Source: Planctomycetes bacterium UBA2386
GTDB lineage: Bacteria; Planctomycetota; UBA1135; UBA2386
Assembly: GCA_002343845.1 (NCBI GenBank)
Contig: DDSQ01000165.1
Location: 5,611 to 22,464 of the forward strand
Direction of reading: 5' to 3'
Length of the DNA stretch: 16,854 nt
Within the stretch, counting starts at the first letter, position 1. The number at the start of each line of letters is the position of its first letter. A program made the position numbers and the translations under genes. Below are positions 6,574-16,854 of this stretch, one piece after another. The notes under the pieces are model-generated. The model was not told the DNA's origin. It saw only the letters and a list, made by a program, of their open reading frames with translations, and searched no databases.

Positions 6574-7599
6574 TCACTTCTTCTTGCCGAGCCACTTCTC
6601 CGCGAACGCCTTGTTGTGGCGCTCGACGACGTCCAGGTCCGCGGCCTGCAGCCGCTTGCCGGTGCGTTCGAGCATCGTCCGGAACCACGCGATCTCCTCG
6701 GGCTGCGCCGGACAACCGACGTTGCCGTTCGGCCCATTGGCGGTGACCAGTTCCTTGCCGTCGCCATCGAGGATCGTCATCCACGGGATGCCGCCGCCGC
6801 GGTGGCCGGCGCGCAGCTTCTGGATCACGGGGGCCGCGTTCGTGTGCTTGCCGCTGTCGAGCGACAGCAGCACGTAGTCCTTCTCCAGCAGCGCGTGCAC
6901 TTCGGGGTGCTCGAGGAACTCCTCGAGCCTCGTGCACCAGCCTCAACCCGGCCCGTGCACGTGCACGAGCAGCTTGCGGTCGCTGGCCTTCGCGGCGGCG
7001 AGCCCGGCGTCGAGCCGCTTCTGCGCGTCACGCTCCCCGGCCGCAGCAGCAGCGACTGGCGGCGCCTTCTCGGCGAGCAATGCGGTGATCGCGCCGTCGA
7101 GCGCCGCGTTCTGCAGGTCGGCGACACGCAGGTTGCCGGCGCGGTCGATCAGGTAGTAGTCGGGATACGAATCGACCGCGAACGCCGTCGTCGTCGCGTT
7201 GTCGACGTCGATGCACACCGGATAGGTGATCTTCTGCTCGTCGACGAACGCCGGCATGCGGTCGGCTCCGTTCGTGGTGTGGACCCCGATGACGACGAGG
7301 CCCGCGTCCTTGTGCTTGCTGGCCAGCTCGAGGAGGTGCGGCACGGCACCCCTGCAGGGCCCTCACCAGACGCCCCAGAAGTCGAGCAGCACGACCTTGC
7401 CGCGCAGATCCGCGAGAGCGAGCGGTTGGTCGGTGTTGCGCCAGCTGCCGACGACGAGAGGCGGCGGTGCTTTGCCTTCGAGCGGGTCCTTCTTCGCGCG
7501 CTGCGCGGGATTGCCTTCGCGCGGGAACGGATCCTGCGCCGGCTCCTGGGCGAACATGGCCCCGCAGAGGGCCAACGGGAACAGCCATCGAGCGGTCAT
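6574..7599 (-). CDS. Exported tandem thioredoxin-like selenoprotein (TlpA domain plus thioredoxin domain) with two selenocysteines
   Basis: The frame codes for 341 residues if two in-frame TGA codons (7363-7365 and 6943-6945) are read as selenocysteine. Order: signal peptide 1-18 (ending MFAQ); a TlpA/AhpC-type thioredoxin fold about 43-178 with redox motif WUGPC (U79, C82) and cis-proline P146 in YPDYYLID; an alanine-rich linker 179-189; a second thioredoxin-like domain about 190-341 with GUGWC (U219, C222) followed by TRLEEFL, and cis-proline P272 in GIPW. Homologues have CxxC at both sites, so each TGA replaces the attacking cysteine. Sequence similarity and frame run unbroken across both TGAs. 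The ATG at 7599 is fixed by AGGAGG five bases upstream and by the signal peptide. It is probably a periplasmic thiol/disulfide or peroxide-linked oxidoreductase; its partner is unknown. The gene stands alone, convergent with the barrel gene and divergent from the hydrolase. The alternative is a pseudogene with two nonsense mutations, unlikely given their exact positions and the hairpins downstream. Confidence 0.88.
6906..6938 (-). promoter_or_regulatory. SECIS-like hairpin for the second selenocysteine codon (U219)
   Basis: On the coding strand, beginning 5 bases after the TGA at 6943-6945, arms GGTGC and CGAGG pair with CCTCG and GCACC: two 5-bp helices separated by one A-A mismatch. The 11-base apical loop is CTCGAGGAGTT and starts 16 bases after the TGA; it contains GG. 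Position and form fit bacterial SECIS elements recognised by SelB, which lie inside the coding region just past the UGA. Stem stability also follows partly from high GC, so this is a prediction. Confidence 0.72.
7331..7353 (-). promoter_or_regulatory. SECIS-like hairpin for the first selenocysteine codon (U79)
   Basis: On the coding strand, 10 bases after the TGA at 7363-7365, arm AGGGGTGC pairs with GCACC-T-CCT to make an 8-bp stem with one bulged U in the 3' arm. The 6-base loop CGTGCC has GU at its second and third positions and begins 18 bases after the TGA. A GU in the apical loop and a bulged U are features of the experimentally studied E. coli fdhF SECIS, though there the bulge is on the 5' arm. 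An additional outer GGCC/GGCC helix is possible. Confidence 0.75.
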
Positions 7600-7604
7600 G
7601 AGTA

Positions 7605-7610
7605 CCTCCT
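7605..7610 (-). promoter_or_regulatory. Strong Shine-Dalgarno site of the selenoprotein gene
   Basis: AGGAGG on the minus strand, separated by TACTC from the ATG at 7599. It is the clearest ribosome-binding site in the window. It decides the start of the selenoprotein against upstream in-frame codons and shows that the gene is actively maintained rather than a remnant. Confidence 0.85.
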
Positions 7611-11399: not shown

Positions 11400-12221
11400 T
11401 CACGGCCCCTTGGCGCCGATCGGCAGCAATCCGTGCTCCTTCAGGATCGCCTGCCCATCGGCGCCGAGCGCCAGCGCCCGGAACGCCGCCGCGCCGCGGG
11501 GTTCCTTGGCCTCGCGGGTCTCCGAGATCGAGTAGAGCACCGGCGTGTTCTCGGCCTCTGGCACCGTCACCGTCACCACGCCGTCGACGCCGCGGCACGT
11601 CGTCGTGTAGACGATCGCGGCGTCGGCCTCGCCGGCGACGAGTCTCGCCAGCACCGCAGCCGCGCTGTCGCCTTCCGCGGCGGGCGTCACTTCGAGCTGC
11701 TGCCGCGACAACACCCAGCGTCCGTGCCGGCCGATCGAGGACGAACGTGCGCCGAGCGCGACCCGCACATCGGGACGCGCGAGGTCGCGCAGCGAGCGGA
11801 TGCCCTTGGCATCGCCTGCGCGCACGGCGATCGCGATGCGGCTGCGCGCGAGCTCGGTCGGACTGTGGGCAGCGAGCAGGGCCGACGCGGCGAAGCGCGA
11901 CATCAGCGACGAGTCGCCGATGGCGACGACGTCGGCGCGTTCGCCGGCGTTCATGCGCGCCAACAGACGCGCGCCGCCCGCGACGACGAGTTCGACCCGC
12001 CCCCCAGGATGGTCGGCCTCGTAGCGACGCGCGAGGGCCTGGAACGCAGGCCCGAGCGAGGCCGTGGCGAAGACGACGACGGTGTGGGGACCGGCCGGCG
12101 CGTCGGCGGACGGGGCGACGGCGGCTGGTGCAGCCTCGGCACCGCGACTGCCGCATGCTGCGGCGACGACGGCGACGGCGACCCCGAGGACGAACGGGGA
12201 GGTCCAGCGCCGAGCGTTCAT
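11400..12221 (-). CDS. ModA-like periplasmic substrate-binding protein at the end of the nos operon
   Basis: A 273-residue exported protein, possibly a lipoprotein: a hydrophobic leader ends VAAAC (C23), a weak lipobox. From about residue 47 it follows the type II binding-protein layout of molybdate-binding ModA: VFATASLGPAFQALARRYE, AGGARLLARMNAG, ADVVAIGD and GEADAAIVYTTT (197-208). The ligand is unknown; molybdate, tungstate, another oxyanion or a nos-related factor are all possible. No ABC permease of the Mod type adjoins it. It is coupled to the preceding membrane-protein gene by a 4-bp ATGA overlap, so it is expressed with the nos genes and probably serves them. The fold assignment is secure; the function is not. 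Confidence 0.82.
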   Translation of the reverse strand: MNARRWTSPFVLGVAVAVVAAACGSRGAEAAPAAVAPSADAPAGPHTVVVFATASLGPAFQALARRYEADHPGGRVELVVAGGARLLARMNAGERADVVAIGDSSLMSRFAASALLAAHSPTELARSRIAIAVRAGDAKGIRSLRDLARPDVRVALGARSSSIGRHGRWVLSRQQLEVTPAAEGDSAAAVLARLVAGEADAAIVYTTTCRGVDGVVTVTVPEAENTPVLYSISETREAKEPRGAAAFRALALGADGQAILKEHGLLPIGAKGP

Positions 12222-12868
12222 GCCGGCACCACCGCGAGCGACCTCGCTTGCCGTCGACCCACCCACAGGTGCCACAACGTGAGTGCCCACACGCCGGCGG
12301 TGAACGCGCCGAGCAGCAGCGAGCCGCCCTGCGGCATGCTCCAGGTCAGGAAGTTGGCGATCTGCTTTTCCCCGAAGATCACGGGCATGAACGGTTCGAT
12401 CCGCACCGGGGCCTTCGGGTCGAGCTGGTGGCCGAACTCGTACAGCATCCAGACGAACCGCACGAAGGCGATGCCCGACACGTAGGCGGCGATCATCGAC
12501 AGGTCGATCAGCGCGCGCACGTTGCCGAGCAGCGCGGCCCGCAGCGAGAGCAGCGCCATGGCCACCAGCGCGAACGGAATCCAGTCGAGATCCCGCAGCT
12601 CGTCGCGCGTGATCGTGCGCATGCCGATGTAGTGGTTGAGCGTGTTGATCTCCTGGATGTCGTGCCCGTCGTTGCCGCCGACGACCTGGTAGGAGTAGAT
12701 GTCCATCTTCAGGCCCTCGGGGTACTGCGGGGCCTTCATGCTGATCCGCCACAGCGGGAACAGAAAACTCAGCACGAGCGGGACGACCAGCACGACCAGC
12801 AACCAGCGCGAACGCACGCGCAGCGGCGCATCGAGGAACTCCCAGAAGTTGTCAGCAGGCGGGCGCAT
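12218..12868 (-). CDS. nos-operon-associated integral membrane protein of unknown function
   Basis: A 216-residue protein with about four membrane segments (22-40, 97-115, 120-141 and 180-203) and a sizeable non-membrane loop after the first. That loop has distinctive, conserved-looking motifs: KAPQYPEGL (45-53) and NTLNHYIGM (75-83); a later segment EPFMPVIFGEKQIANF (158-173) precedes the last helix. I recall similar proteins beside nos genes of clade II N2O reducers, but cannot verify that here. The histidine and methionines in the loop could bind copper; that is inference. A GGAG six bases before the ATG supports the start. It sits 12 bp after nosY and overlaps the ModA-like gene, so it is a nos operon member. 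Confidence 0.75.
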   Translation of the reverse strand: MRPPADNFWEFLDAPLRVRSRWLLVVLVVPLVLSFLFPLWRISMKAPQYPEGLKMDIYSYQVVGGNDGHDIQEINTLNHYIGMRTITRDELRDLDWIPFALVAMALLSLRAALLGNVRALIDLSMIAAYVSGIAFVRFVWMLYEFGHQLDPKAPVRIEPFMPVIFGEKQIANFLTWSMPQGGSLLLGAFTAGVWALTLWHLWVGRRQARSLAVVPA

Positions 12869-12880
12869 CAGGGTCTCCGT

Positions 12881-13720
12881 TCACACGAGGTCGTGGCGGC
12901 GGAACGCGCCGAGGCTCCACGACCAGGCAGTGAGTCCGAGCAACAACGGCCAGCCGATGCCGATACACAGCATCGCGGTGCCGCCGATCTTGTTGGCGAG
13001 GAAGAAGCCGACCGGACCGAAGGTCGACAGTTCGGGCTGTGCTGCCGACAGCAGGGCCAGCCGCGCGCACTGCACCGGGTTCAGCGCGGCCAGGGCCACG
13101 ACCGCGGACGGCGGCAGTTCCCACTGCAGCATCACGCCGACCAACGCGAAGTCGATCAACGCCACGCCGAGCGCCCAGATCAGGATCGTCAGCATCAGCG
13201 CCTTCGCCTGGTTGCGCACCAGCGTCGACACCAGCAGGCCCAGCGAGACGAAACACAGCAGCAACGCCGTGCTCACCGCCATGCCCCGCAGCAGGAAGTC
13301 CCAGGGCACGTCCTGGCCGAACGCCATCGCCCCGACCAACCCCATCACCGGCATCGCCACCAGCAAGGGCAGGCAGAGGGCGCCGATCCGCACCAGGCTC
13401 GTGCCGACGAAGTAGCCGGTGCGGCTGACCGGGTTCGCGAGCAGCAACTCGAGCGAGCCGTCGTCGCGCGCGGTGTTGACGACCTGGCCGGTCGCCGACA
13501 GCGCCAGCAGCGGCAGCAGGAACAGCAGCGCGTGGCTCCACGACATCAGGGCGCGCCCCATGCCGGTGAAGCCGATCACGCCCGACTCACGCAGGCCGAC
13601 CAGGACGAACAGGCCGGCGAGGATCGCGTGCACGCAGAGGCAGAAGATGAGCCACCGCGACCGCAGCACCTCGGCGAAGTCGAGCCGGGCGACGACGGCG
13701 ATCTCGCGCGTGAGCTTCAT
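12881..13720 (-). CDS. nosY: NosY, ABC-2 type permease for N2O reductase maturation
   Basis: NosY is the membrane part of the NosDFY ABC complex, which supports assembly of the copper-sulfide site of nitrous-oxide reductase. The 279-residue protein has an N-terminal amphipathic stretch and about six membrane segments (22-42, 62-80, 107-131, 145-168, 174-196, 250-272). The sequence DDGSLELLLANPVSRTGYF after the second helix is the ABC-2/NosY coupling region. The ATG overlaps the nosL stop by 4 bp. The placement next to nosF and nosL makes the specific name reliable. Confidence 0.93.
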   Translation of the reverse strand: MKLTREIAVVARLDFAEVLRSRWLIFCLCVHAILAGLFVLVGLRESGVIGFTGMGRALMSWSHALLFLLPLLALSATGQVVNTARDDGSLELLLANPVSRTGYFVGTSLVRIGALCLPLLVAMPVMGLVGAMAFGQDVPWDFLLRGMAVSTALLLCFVSLGLLVSTLVRNQAKALMLTILIWALGVALIDFALVGVMLQWELPPSAVVALAALNPVQCARLALLSAAQPELSTFGPVGFFLANKIGGTAMLCIGIGWPLLLGLTAWSWSLGAFRRHDLV

Positions 13721-14187
13721 CGCTTGTCCCCGTGGCCGGTGGTCCGCTGCAGGCAACGCTGCCGGCATTCGTCGTGGTCGATCGCGCCCGGGGTGCCGGC
13801 GTCCACGGCGCCGAAGCCGAACCCCATCGGCGTCGGCGACACCGACACGAAGGCCACGCGATCGCGCGCGATCCAGCGGGCTTCCTGGTGGTGTCGGAAG
13901 AACACCGAGTGCAGGTCCGGGTGCTGTTCCTCGATCCAGAGGAACAGGCAGCCCGGGTCGTCGAACGCGTGAACACGCCCGTCCTTGGTCGTCGCCTGGG
14001 CCGCGAACGGCGGCTCGCCGACGTGCATGCCGCACGCCACGCACGCCGCCTTGTCCCAGACGAGTTCGGCGGGGCCGTCGGGCAGCTTCCCCGACGCCAG
14101 CACCGACCAGCCGATCGCCGTGCCGACGATCGCCAGCACGAGCGCGAGCAGGGTCAGCGGCAGGAAGCGGGTCACCAGTGCGTTCAT
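13717..14187 (-). CDS. nosL: NosL-like copper chaperone, membrane-anchored
   Basis: NosL binds Cu(I) and helps deliver it to apo-NosZ with NosDFY. The 156-residue protein carries the NosL signature CVACGMHVGEPPFAAQ (C49, C52, M54) and the following F(D)DPGCLFLW block (75-84). Instead of a lipobox it has one uncleaved-looking hydrophobic helix (about 8-30), so it is probably tethered to the inner membrane facing the periplasm. The C-terminus has an extra C141-x3-C145 pair that could bind another metal ion or form a disulfide. Its start overlaps the nosF stop and its stop overlaps the nosY start (both ATGA), showing tight coupling. Confidence 0.9.
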   Translation of the reverse strand: MNALVTRFLPLTLLALVLAIVGTAIGWSVLASGKLPDGPAELVWDKAACVACGMHVGEPPFAAQATTKDGRVHAFDDPGCLFLWIEEQHPDLHSVFFRHHQEARWIARDRVAFVSVSPTPMGFGFGAVDAGTPGAIDHDECRQRCLQRTTGHGDKR

Positions 14188-15068
14188 GGCTGTGGTCTCC
14201 GGGTGCCGAGATCGAGACGTTCGACGTCGCGCGCGACGACGTCCTGTACCTGGCCGTCCAGCGAGCGGCCGATTTCGGCGAGCAGCCGCGCGCGCTCGGC
14301 CACCGGCAACGACTTGTTCCACCAGCCCCCGGCCCCCCGCGAGAACCCGCGGTCGCGCAACCACCCATCGGCGCCGTCGCCGGCCGCGCGCACCTCGATC
14401 ACCGCCTCGGCGTGTTCGTCGAGCCAGGCGTTCGCCGCGCCCTGCCAGGCGACCTGGCCGTCGGCCAGCACGACGACGGCCTCGACCAGCCTGCGGATCT
14501 CGTCGAGCCGATGCGAGCAGAGCAACACCGAGGTCGCCGCGGGCAAGCGCTCGACGAGCCGGAAGAACGCGCTCCGGCTGCGCGGATCCATGCTCGCCGT
14601 CGGTTCGTCGAGGACGAGCAGTTCCGCCCCGGACGCCAGCGCCAGCGCCGCCAGCACCTTCTGGCGCTGGCCGCCCGACAACGCCCGGAACGGTCGCCGC
14701 GCCAGTTCGCCGAGGTCGACCCCGAGCTCGGCGGCGATCGCGCCGACTTCTTCGACGCTGCGACCGCGCAGACCGCTCACCGCCCGCACGACGTCGCGCA
14801 CCGGGGCGGCGAAGCGCGGCGCGACCTGCGGCACGTAGGCGATGCGGTGCGCGAGGCCCGAGCGCTCTTCGCCGACCCGCACGCCATCGCACCGGACTTC
14901 GCCCGCAGCCCCGAGCGAGCCCATCAGCACGCGGACGAGCGTCGACTTGCCCGACCCGTTGGGGCCGATCAACGCCGTGCGGCTGCCGGCGGGCAGGCGC
15001 ATCGTGACGTCGCGCAGGGCTTCGACCCGACCGAAGCGCTTGCCGATGCGGTGCAGTTCAACGTCCAC
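14184..15068 (-). CDS. nosF: NosF, ABC transporter ATPase for N2O reductase maturation
   Basis: The cytoplasmic ATPase of the NosDFY complex, 294 residues. Visible motifs in order are Walker A GPNGSGKST, Q-loop YVPQ, signature LSGGQRQKV, Walker B LLVLDEPTASMD and the H-loop in CSHRLDE. The last 70 residues form the C-terminal extension usual in NosF-type ATPases. The GTG at 15068 is chosen because GGAGG lies six bases upstream and the protein then begins with the normal VELHRIGKRFG; this makes it overlap the end of nosD by 11 bp. Position between nosD and nosL/nosY supports the name over a general ABC ATPase. Confidence 0.93.
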   Translation of the reverse strand: MDVELHRIGKRFGRVEALRDVTMRLPAGSRTALIGPNGSGKSTLVRVLMGSLGAAGEVRCDGVRVGEERSGLAHRIAYVPQVAPRFAAPVRDVVRAVSGLRGRSVEEVGAIAAELGVDLGELARRPFRALSGGQRQKVLAALALASGAELLVLDEPTASMDPRSRSAFFRLVERLPAATSVLLCSHRLDEIRRLVEAVVVLADGQVAWQGAANAWLDEHAEAVIEVRAAGDGADGWLRDRGFSRGAGGWWNKSLPVAERARLLAEIGRSLDGQVQDVVARDVERLDLGTRRPQP

Positions 15069-16365
15069 GGTGCGCCTCCGGGGTCCAGGCCATGGCGATC
15101 GGAGCCATTCGCGGCGTCGCGTCGTGCAACAGGCGCCGCGGCGCGAACAGGGGCATGACCTCGCCGACCACGTCGACGAGCCCCATCGCCGGCGAACCAT
15201 GCAGCAGCGCCAGTTCGGGATACCGCCCCTCGAGCTGCGTCGACAACCGGCGGAACTCGAACGGCACGTCGCCGCGGCCGTCGCCGTCGAAGTCGTAGCC
15301 CTGGTAGCTGTCGTAGTAGTTGCCGCGGAAGTCGCAGGCGAGCGCATCGCCCTGGCCGCCGACCTTGATCACGGCGCCGTTGTCGCGGAACTCGTTGTCC
15401 ACGAACTCGCTGCGCTGCGCGCGGCTGTGCAGCGACACTGCGTTCTCGGCGAACCGCAGCACGTTGCGTCGGTAGCGGTTGTGGTGCGCGGGATCGAGCG
15501 GCGACGCATCGACGTAGATGCCGGTCGTGTTGGCCAGCAGCCAGCAGTCCTCGACCGTGATGTTGCCGGCCTCCTTGAGGCCGATGCCGATGCCGGCAGC
15601 ACCACCGGCCTTGGCCAGCAGGTTGCGCGCCAGGGTGATGTCGCGCGAGTACATCACGAACACTCCGACCTCGTCCTCGACGTAGCGGCTGTCCTCGACC
15701 ACGTTCTCGTGGCTGTACATGAAGTGCGTGCCGTAACGGCAGCGCATCACGGTGTTGCGGCGCAGGTGGTTGCGCGACGAGTACCACACGACGATGTCGC
15801 GCGCGTCCGTCACCATGTTGTCGGTGATCTCGGAGTCGTTGGTCTCCCACAGGCGGATGCCGTCGCCGCGCAGGCCCATCGCCGGCAAGCCGGTGCCCAC
15901 CACCGTGTTGCCGCGCACGACCGCGCGGCGGCACTTCTCGAGCAGGATGCCGAACAGGGCGTCCCGGACGGTGAGGCCCTCCACCACCAGGTCGTTGCCC
16001 TGCAGGTGCACGCCGCCGTCCATCATGTCGAACCGCTGGCCGCTGCCGACGACCGTGAAGCCGCGCAGCTGCACGCCGTCGGCCTGCACGCGCACGGTCG
16101 AACCGTTCTCTGCGTGCACCACCGCGTCGGCTGGGCCGTGGATCACCAGCGGCTTGTCGATCCGCAGCGGACCCTGGTGCCGCCCCGGCAGCAGGCGCAG
16201 CGTGGCGCCTGGTGCTGCGGCGGCGATCGCCGCTGTCAGGGCATCACCGGCAGGGACCGGCGTGCCGTCCGTCGACGGCGTGAGCCACGAAGGCGCCGTC
16301 GGCGGGGTCACGTCGCTGCGGCAAGCAGCGAACGCAAGCAGCAGGAGTGCGGCGCGTCGGGGCAT
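15058..16365 (-). CDS. nosD: NosD, periplasmic beta-helix maturation protein
   Basis: NosD is the periplasmic partner of NosFY and contacts NosZ during copper-site assembly. The 435-residue protein has a leader that may end in a lipobox-like AFAAC (C15), then about 75-335 a right-handed beta-helix of the CASH type, seen as repeated N-x-(V/I) strand turns such as RGNTVVG, TDNMVTD, RRNTVMR and RRNVLRF. The C-terminal NYYDSYQGYDFDGDG followed by RGDVPF (349-368) is the calcium-like GDGxGDxP signature typical of NosD proteins. It starts 39 bp after the nosZ stop, with only a weak purine-rich site, and overlaps nosF. The identification is firm from fold and context. Confidence 0.94.
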   Translation of the reverse strand: MPRRAALLLLAFAACRSDVTPPTAPSWLTPSTDGTPVPAGDALTAAIAAAAPGATLRLLPGRHQGPLRIDKPLVIHGPADAVVHAENGSTVRVQADGVQLRGFTVVGSGQRFDMMDGGVHLQGNDLVVEGLTVRDALFGILLEKCRRAVVRGNTVVGTGLPAMGLRGDGIRLWETNDSEITDNMVTDARDIVVWYSSRNHLRRNTVMRCRYGTHFMYSHENVVEDSRYVEDEVGVFVMYSRDITLARNLLAKAGGAAGIGIGLKEAGNITVEDCWLLANTTGIYVDASPLDPAHHNRYRRNVLRFAENAVSLHSRAQRSEFVDNEFRDNGAVIKVGGQGDALACDFRGNYYDSYQGYDFDGDGRGDVPFEFRRLSTQLEGRYPELALLHGSPAMGLVDVVGEVMPLFAPRRLLHDATPRMAPIAMAWTPEAHRGR

Positions 16366-16404
16366 GGTGGCTCGTCTTCACGGGAGTGGCGGCAGCGCGT
16401 GACG

Positions 16405-16854
16405 TCACTTCGGCTCGACCAGCAGGTAGCCGGCCATCTCGAGGTGCAGGGCCGAGCAGAACTCGGTGCAGTAGAACGGGAAGACGCCGGCCTTGTCGAC
16501 CTTGAACACGATGTTGCAGTGCTTGCCGGGTTCGAGGCTGACGTTGATGTTCTGGCCGCCGATCGCGATGCCGTGCGTGGCGTCCTTCGCCTGCTCGACG
16601 CTGGTCACGTGCAGGTGCACGGTGTCGCCTTGCTTCACGCGCACGATGTCGGGCGTGAAGTGGCTGCGCACCGCCGTCATGTAGACGTGCACGCCGTCGT
16701 CCTTGCGCTCGATGCGCTCCTTGCCGGCCACGGTCGCGTTCGGATCGACCGCGTGCGTGTAGGGGTTGGTCCCGATCGGCTTGTAGACCTCGATCGGCTT
16801 GATCTTGCCGACCTTGATCATCTGCGCGTTGTGCGGCTCGCCGAGCGGCAGCGG
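16405..16854 (-). CDS. nosZ: Nitrous-oxide reductase NosZ, C-terminal CuA domain (5' part outside window)
   Basis: NosZ reduces N2O to N2 in the periplasm. Only the last 149 residues are visible; the frame is open to the window edge, so the CuZ propeller, the export signal and the promoter are not seen. The segment LGEPHNAQMIK, conserved in the linker before the cupredoxin domain, is present. The CuA site is complete: an upstream histidine in ATHGIAIGG and then CTEFCSALHLEM, giving the two cysteines, histidine and methionine at the known spacing. The residue between the cysteines whose carbonyl binds copper is glutamate rather than the tryptophan of Pseudomonas NosZ; I associate CTEFC with clade II enzymes. 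It is the first gene of the nos operon visible here. Confidence 0.96.
   Translation of the reverse strand, partial: PLPLGEPHNAQMIKVGKIKPIEVYKPIGTNPYTHAVDPNATVAGKERIERKDDGVHVYMTAVRSHFTPDIVRVKQGDTVHLHVTSVEQAKDATHGIAIGGQNINVSLEPGKHCNIVFKVDKAGVFPFYCTEFCSALHLEMAGYLLVEPK

Follow-up and report, generated by a model that had tools for sequence, protein, structure and literature searches.

A planctomycete gene predicted to encode an exported thioredoxin-fold selenoprotein with two selenocysteine sites

Gene, reading frame and predicted domains

The window analysed here, the whole stretch of 16,854 nucleotides from Planctomycetes bacterium UBA2386, carries on its minus strand a putative gene in which three open segments are separated by two in-frame TGA codons (Table 1). 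Translation of the complete interval with both internal TGAs read as selenocysteine (Sec, U) gives one product of 341 residues. The first-pass annotation had proposed that the three segments share one frame and that both TGAs replace the first Cys of a CxxC motif while the second Cys is kept; translation bore this out, since the coordinates are right, the frame is single and the motifs read WUGPC and GUGWC. The chance that two in-frame codons picked at random would hit the first Cys position of both motifs is approximately 1.7e-5. The third-position GC content is high throughout (0.85, 0.91 and 0.94 in segments one to three), and the frame shows no sign of decay in the window. The Tgt protein of the window is up to 92% identical to metagenome proteins; most of the 120 matches listed carry no taxon name, and all names that are given there read Planctomycetota or Planctomycetes, which makes an origin of the window in this phylum almost certain.

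Table 1. Features of the putative two-Sec gene (positions of the window; all on the minus strand)
Feature	Position	Strand	Remarks
Putative two-Sec selenoprotein gene	6574..7599	-	ATG 7597-7599, terminator TGA 6574-6576
Shine-Dalgarno-like AGGAGG	7605..7610	-	5 nt upstream of ATG
Apparent signal peptide, about residues 1-17	7549..7599	-	judged by eye
TlpA/ResA-like thioredoxin domain, residues 57-159	7123..7431	-	Pfam AhpC-TSA 4.4e-18; Foldseek: DipZ C-terminal domain, ResA
TGA1, read as U79, motif WUGPC	7363..7365	-	TGA or Cys codon at the equivalent site in relatives
Candidate bacterial SECIS 1	7333..7352	-	7-bp stem GGGGUGC/GCACCUC, loop CGUGCC starting 17 nt after TGA1
Thioredoxin_7 domain, residues 192-278	6766..7026	-	Pfam 6.1e-14; AF2 domain model; Foldseek
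TGA2, read as U219, motif GUGWC	6943..6945	-	TGA or Cys codon at the equivalent site in relatives
Candidate bacterial SECIS 2	6909..6928	-	8-bp stem GCUCGAGG/CCUCGAGC, loop AGUU starting 22 nt after TGA2
Third conserved Cys, C296 of GNxGCP	6712..6714	-	between last strand and next helix

The annotation had also described a protein led by a signal peptide with a TlpA-like and a second thioredoxin-like domain. Pfam and the fold predictions agree with the two domains, and export of the protein is suggested by a leader that was read by eye; hydrophobic leaders are also present at the N-terminus of the relatives in the alignment. Within residues 55-159 both the Redoxin and the AhpC-TSA models of Pfam matched above their gathering scores. 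This profile match, the W-C/U-xx-C motif at the start of a helix and a conserved Pro in a later loop, which by analogy would be in the cis form, characterize domain 1 as TlpA/ResA-like. The specific NCBIfam models for this domain all remained below cut-off (ResA 73.9 vs 170 bits, DsbE 39 vs 123.15, TlpA 52.5 vs 230), and the model of the ResA-like WAxxUGC selenoprotein NF041054 reached 47.8 bits against a cut-off of 300, the motif here being WUGPC and not UGC. Among all models of NCBIfam 20.0 none scored above its cut-off with the window protein. Domain 2 matched PF13899 with 52.3 bits (gathering score 27) and gave an AF2 model with a pLDDT of 88 and a pTM of 0.86, for which Foldseek listed 3fk8 as best hit and the DsbD C-terminal domain next. 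However, DsbD-gamma was not singled out, because the VIA-align ranking was led by 3fk8 and ordinary thioredoxins followed within 1 Z. A thioredoxin fold is predicted for both domains, with each U situated just ahead of the active-site helix.

A third cysteine, C296, precedes the penultimate helix in the motif GNxGCP and does not vary among the eight two-Sec proteins of alignment A1. A Cys at this position was found in 19 of 22 Sec forms versus five of 16 Cys forms; the enrichment (Fisher 0.0015, calculated with 19/22 vs 5/15 as counted by eye) is unsupported once kinship is considered. In thioredoxins the equivalent loop lies near the active site, hence C296 is a candidate resolving thiol.

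Relatives and selenocysteine machinery

At matching codons, both TGAs recur in 13 further genomes of the Planctomycetota; three of these encode two-domain proteins and ten encode proteins with an extra central domain. At least seven of 392 Planctomycetota genomes, scored with few candidates per genome, contain a full-length two-TGA relative. The two-domain layout of the window is shared by L042 (WUGPC/WUGWC), L043 (WUPPC/WUGYC) and L044 (WUGPC/WUGYC), which represent three of the 12 genomes of their class in this set, and the extra central domain is found in L048, L049, L050 and L052; the seven relatives aligned in A1 are 47-52% identical to the window protein. A search of 154 genomes from the class of G394 with L048 as query gave matches in 13, comprising ten two-TGA genomes, six of them new (L140-L145) and four common to the first set, and three with one TGA. 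Two of the latter, the three-domain loci L146 (G445) and L147 (G442), kept TGA1 while the second site is decayed to FSGWS and WQDKC, respectively, and judging from these sequences they are natural one-Sec derivatives; the third match with one TGA lies in G443. In the homologues compared at residues 79 and 219, as the earlier annotation had recommended, Cys or TGA is found exactly there, and the frames of the relatives run on past both sites. Moreover, 17 metagenome ORFs of 230-244 residues among the 120 homologues listed start a short way past the first site and terminate with HLGAPW, exactly ahead of the second site; judged from these protein sequences, their stop codons are presumably TGA.

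Each domain also occurs on its own. One-Sec TlpA domains with WUGPC are encoded in eight genomes, three of them in combination with another C-terminal part, and seven genomes of the set that was read first carry one-Sec Trx7 proteins with the motif WUGWC. That either domain is found without its counterpart in one-Sec proteins speaks for an additional, independent function of each site. In the three fused loci (L054, L055, L056) the C-terminal part after the TlpA domain is about 220 residues long, and the metagenome ORFs P0087 and P0108, which begin after a TlpA first site, likewise have a long C-terminal part. The one-Sec TlpA locus L045 (G072) has an in-frame TAG between YPD and YY beyond which homology continues, reflecting either a sequencing error or recent decay. 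An all-Cys three-domain homologue, P0242 (WCGPC and APWCGWC), is 44% identical to L048 over 425 columns and is the only such fusion among the 318 sequences compared. After a scan of the genome contigs with Cys-spelled peptide patterns, the 11 loci that were translated proved to be Cys forms, and a motif scan retrieved no Sec form among 33 loci.

The protein-coding character of the region was evaluated with three pairs among L049, L050 and L052, in which dN/dS amounted to 0.13-0.27 in the segment ahead of TGA1, 0.16-0.24 in the middle segment and 0.18-0.26 in the segment beyond TGA2. These low values in all segments indicate that selection maintains the protein encoded 3' of both TGAs. The two-Sec forms do not make up one clade in the best tree of either the TlpA or the Trx7 domain; a single origin was not rejected with the TlpA-domain tree (p-AU 0.108). 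Since separate one-Sec TlpA and Trx7 proteins exist and the two-Sec forms are ungrouped in the best trees, it is conceivable that the TlpA-Trx7 fusion arose repeatedly.

The machinery for Sec insertion is well represented in the genomes with two-Sec genes. Among the seven first found, to which the following counts refer (the six later ones of the G394 class stand outside them), selB was above cut-off in all seven, and selA, selD and a tRNA-Sec with the anticodon TCA (ARAGORN) were each found in six. All misses come from G180, in which selA, selC and selD gave no matches; its two-Sec gene is located on a 6.4-kb contig and its selB match is partial and near a contig start. All six selD genes above cut-off contain an in-frame TGA of their own in the context GUAAK, which fits the SelD motif UxxK in the table of a 2026 review (PMC13188914). 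Across the 392 Planctomycetota genomes selB was above cut-off in 235, comprising all 22 genomes first read with a Sec form of either domain and 213 of the 370 others (Fisher 1.4e-5, uncorrected for kinship); the Sec-form genomes read later (G308, G313, G214, G116, G253 and G034) are also selB carriers. The gene selD adjoins selA in G135:C111, G206:C774, G147:C48 and G394:C1, and in G135 and G206 the tRNA-Sec gene adjoins selD as well.

Stem-loops downstream of the two TGA codons

According to the model given in the same review (PMC13188914), a bacterial SECIS element has an apical loop of 3-9 nt with a G in the first two loop positions, a stem of 4-16 bp and a spacing of 16-37 nt. The window hairpins after TGA1 and TGA2 both fit this model. 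At site 2 the AGUU loop at +22 is present in 26 of 28 Sec sites and the full 6-bp inner stem in 20 of 22, compared with none of 21 Cys sites, which are as GC-rich as the Sec sites (0.65 vs 0.62). In an alignment of the 26 hairpin-bearing Sec sites (the two without the hairpin left out), 94% of the cells pair versus 35-62% when the partner strand is slid; the covariation score reaches 0.162 versus 0.027-0.058. Double-sided changes occur at three pairs, in one sequence each; the same number is obtained with the partner slid by -1, hence such changes alone decide nothing. The association of Sec with the hairpin on the tree comprises two independent switch pairs, too few for a test. The proteins L061, L064, L068, L071, L108 and L110 have all-Cys N-terminal copies without the hairpin, and their own WUGWC copies have it. 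The codons of the hairpin region specify LEEFL or close variants in Sec forms, and LEDW, LEGW, LEAW, LDAF and similar sequences in the single-copy Cys forms. The RNA element appears to dictate the protein sequence after the second Sec, a position at which the Cys forms vary.

A generic hairpin of -5 kcal/mol or below was found at site 2 in all 28 Sec sites versus 12 of 21 Cys sites (p 4e-4; p 0.005 against the 17 GC-rich Cys sites alone), which separates the two groups less sharply than the fixed stem. Two Thioredoxin_7 loci with TGA at UGWC, L106 (G214) and L107 (G116), lack the AGUU hairpin at +22; alternative hairpins fit there at +25 and +33, possibly reflecting a different SECIS placement.

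The hairpin after TGA1 gave a more varied picture. Here, at least six of the seven stem pairs are kept in nine of 16 Sec sites versus one of 37 Cys sites; these Cys sites have a lower GC content (0.49 vs 0.64) and come in many cases from other phyla. Among eight further Sec sites from two-TGA and one-TGA loci of the G394 class none keeps six pairs. In alignment A4, 74% of the cells pair as compared to 32-54% with the partner slid, and RNAalifold returned no consensus structure after TGA1. A looser scan (-5 kcal/mol or below; L143 falls outside its filter) found a hairpin in 14 of 24 Sec sites versus three of 37 Cys sites, or three of the 14 GC-rich Cys sites (p 0.0016), and three of the 24 Sec sites had no fitting hairpin at all. 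Folding of the single sequence after TGA1 is unremarkable (z +0.97), the hairpin emerging under the constrained scan, and Rfam had no matches in the window. When ranked against other codons of their own gene the window hairpins score modestly (0.20 and 0.05) because the genes are GC-rich, so that the assignment draws on the constant position of the hairpin, on paired changes and on the contrast between Sec and Cys forms. In the window a hairpin of the bacterial SECIS type follows both TGAs, but across the family only the one at site 2 is conserved: SECIS 1 is probably real in the window and no more than a candidate for the family.

Reading of the gene and its place among selenoproteins

Collectively, the comparative sequence data strongly support the selenoprotein reading, and we are highly confident that the gene encodes one exported protein with two redox centres, with Sec at both TGAs, that would act as thiol/disulfide oxidoreductase. 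The homologous sites, the predicted folds and the Sec machinery of the relatives are all in line with the earlier proposal of one Sec per thioredoxin-fold domain at the first active-site Cys. SelB would bring Sec-tRNA-Sec twice per mRNA, once at each TGA, which would each be directed by an own stem-loop just 3' of it. The finished chain would then combine a TlpA/ResA-like domain with UGPC and a Thioredoxin_7 (DsbD-gamma/DsbH-like) domain with UGWC, with Sec in place of the attacking Cys in both, and may work outside the cytoplasm as thiol/disulfide or selenenylsulfide oxidoreductase. By analogy with ResA/TlpA, domain 1 might work on disulfides of its substrates, and domain 2 might accept or hand on electrons as DsbD-gamma does. 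We infer the Sec insertion itself, the export, the role of the TGA1 hairpin, the catalytic direction, the substrate and the electron flow between the domains.

Each of the other possible readings meets evidence from the relatives. An all-Cys TlpA-Trx7 gene could have received two nonsense changes, either as pseudogene or by sequencing error, given that TGA is one base away from the Cys codons TGC and TGT and that an all-Cys fusion exists in P0242. The same two TGAs are, however, present in 13 other genomes, a recurrence that places the two-TGA pattern beyond chance or sequencing error; together with the otherwise intact window frame, the dN/dS of 0.13-0.27 in every segment of three close relatives and a TGA2 hairpin that none of the 21 Cys sites read possesses, this makes such an origin very improbable. 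It is also hard to believe that the TGAs are real stops and that two or three short proteins are made with restarts at GTG 7342-7344 and 6898-6900. Under translation table 11 ORFs do start at these GTGs, and metagenome gene callers give such fragments, but the fragments would be leaderless and start inside the thioredoxin fold, past the active-site Cys. Furthermore, one-Sec TlpA and Trx7 homologues carry TGA at the identical catalytic site, Cys-containing TlpA homologues continue through site 1, and P0242 continues through both sites.

A genome-wide reassignment of TGA to another residue would likewise leave the codon open in the frame of the gene. Nevertheless, TGA terminates the gene itself and nine of the ten other trusted ORFs of the window (one ends at TAG; a spurious frame was left out), and this ordinary use as stop speaks against a code change; the internal TGAs align to Cys rather than to Trp or Gly, and a tRNA-Sec with the anticodon TCA is present in six relatives, which leaves this reading hardly any chance. 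Finally, the weak conservation of SECIS 1 could mean that the protein is a real selenoprotein in which TGA2 is recoded efficiently, while TGA1 mostly terminates translation or is recoded under special conditions. We regard this as improbable, because TGA1 lies upstream of TGA2, so that from ATG 7597-7599 the second domain depends on read-through of TGA1. In addition, proteins with TGA1 only are kept in eight genomes, one of which (with L045) has the extra in-frame TAG, and L146 and L147 retain TGA1 although their second site is decayed.

With Sec at both sites as the preferred reading, a dual-selenol relay is conceivable, in which U219, aided by C296, passes electrons from a membrane partner to U79, or the reverse. 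The first-pass annotation had named a relay or a peroxide/disulfide reductase as possible functions. The relay is a tentative and rather unlikely extension. If it were true, these planctomycetes would possess a self-contained, fast reductase outside the cytoplasm.

For comparison with known selenoproteins, we take the entry cd02966 to be the TlpA-like family. The 2026 review lists 119 prokaryotic selenoprotein families or subfamilies, the vast majority of which contain a single Sec and a small subset two to three (PMC13188914), in agreement with the earlier assumption that one Sec per chain is the usual case. Among the table entries, the thiol-disulfide isomerase-like selenoprotein (cd02966, UxxC) and the Prx-like thiol:disulfide oxidoreductase (PF00578, UxxC/UxxU) resemble domain 1 in having Sec as first residue of CxxC, but they are given with one and one to two Sec, respectively, and neither has a second Trx7 UxxC domain (PMC13188914); as we read the table, the two-Sec variant of the PF00578 entry is the UxxU form. 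Sec-containing folds of the Thioredoxin_2/_7 type are also found in the thiol:disulfide interchange selenoprotein PF13098 (UxxC, single Sec) and in the Trx7/PDZ selenoprotein NF041199, which has a single Sec in a CxxU motif and another partner domain (PMC13188914). TsoB (NF045694, rhodanese/DsbD fusion-like) contains two Sec like the window protein (PMC13188914) but differs in its UxxxxU spacing and architecture, its C-terminal part resembling domain 2 with 28.4 bits against a cut-off of 805. The multi-Sec fusions HUGP/GUXX-star (NF041212, two Sec) and arsenite methyltransferase/AhpD (NF041537, three Sec) show that such bacterial proteins are already on record, but consist of other domains (PMC13188914). 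DsbD-gamma, DsbH, the C-terminal domain of M. tuberculosis DipZ and ResA have the same folds; their entries are not titled selenoproteins, and a fold alone specifies no function. P0242, annotated as redoxin family protein of a Planctomycetota MAG, has the domain order TlpA, central, Trx7 of the three-domain relatives but differs in that both active sites carry Cys, site 2 is followed by LEAFL rather than LEEFL, and Phe takes the place of the third Cys.

Fused selenoproteins have been reported with Prx, Prx-like, SelD, UGSC, deiodinase-like and MucD parts (PMC2398784, PMC9402790), and a study on planctomycete selenoproteins lists its candidates in a supplement (PMC4807772). A TlpA-Trx7 protein with one Sec per domain is absent from the family list of the review (PMC13188914), and the two-Sec architecture was not found in the open literature searched, including the texts of PMC4807772, PMC9312934, PMC2398784 and PMC9402790, with supplementary lists lying outside that search; a text search of PMC12013277 gave nothing matching. 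Hence, as the first-pass annotation had supposed, no prior description came up in this literature or above cut-off in NCBIfam: the parts are known, and the two-Sec two-site architecture is undescribed in the literature searched.

Two recoding events must succeed for each finished molecule. In vivo, Sec recoding has been reported with an efficiency of 30-40% (PMC4513850), and if this applied to both sites about one tenth of the initiations would be completed; this cost suggests that Sec is beneficial at both sites. The natural Cys/Cys fusion and the relatives with Sec at one site make the benefit of each Sec directly testable. Standard gene callers split such a gene into pieces.

To compare the surroundings of the gene, ORFs of 90 aa or longer from the window and from the flanks, a few kb long, of 13 relatives (three with two domains, ten with three) were aligned by blastp. 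Outside the gene and its overlapping frames the sole match listed is an ABC ATPase (31-34%, L123 and L124), so that no partner can be inferred from the shared flanks. On the minus strand at 11403-16854 of the window, Pfam matches comprise a cupredoxin-domain C-terminal fragment resembling NosZ, NosD, a NosF-like ABC ATPase and a solute-binding protein of the SBP_bac_11 type. This looks like a maturation cluster for N2O reductase; the Nos names except NosD are our own reading.
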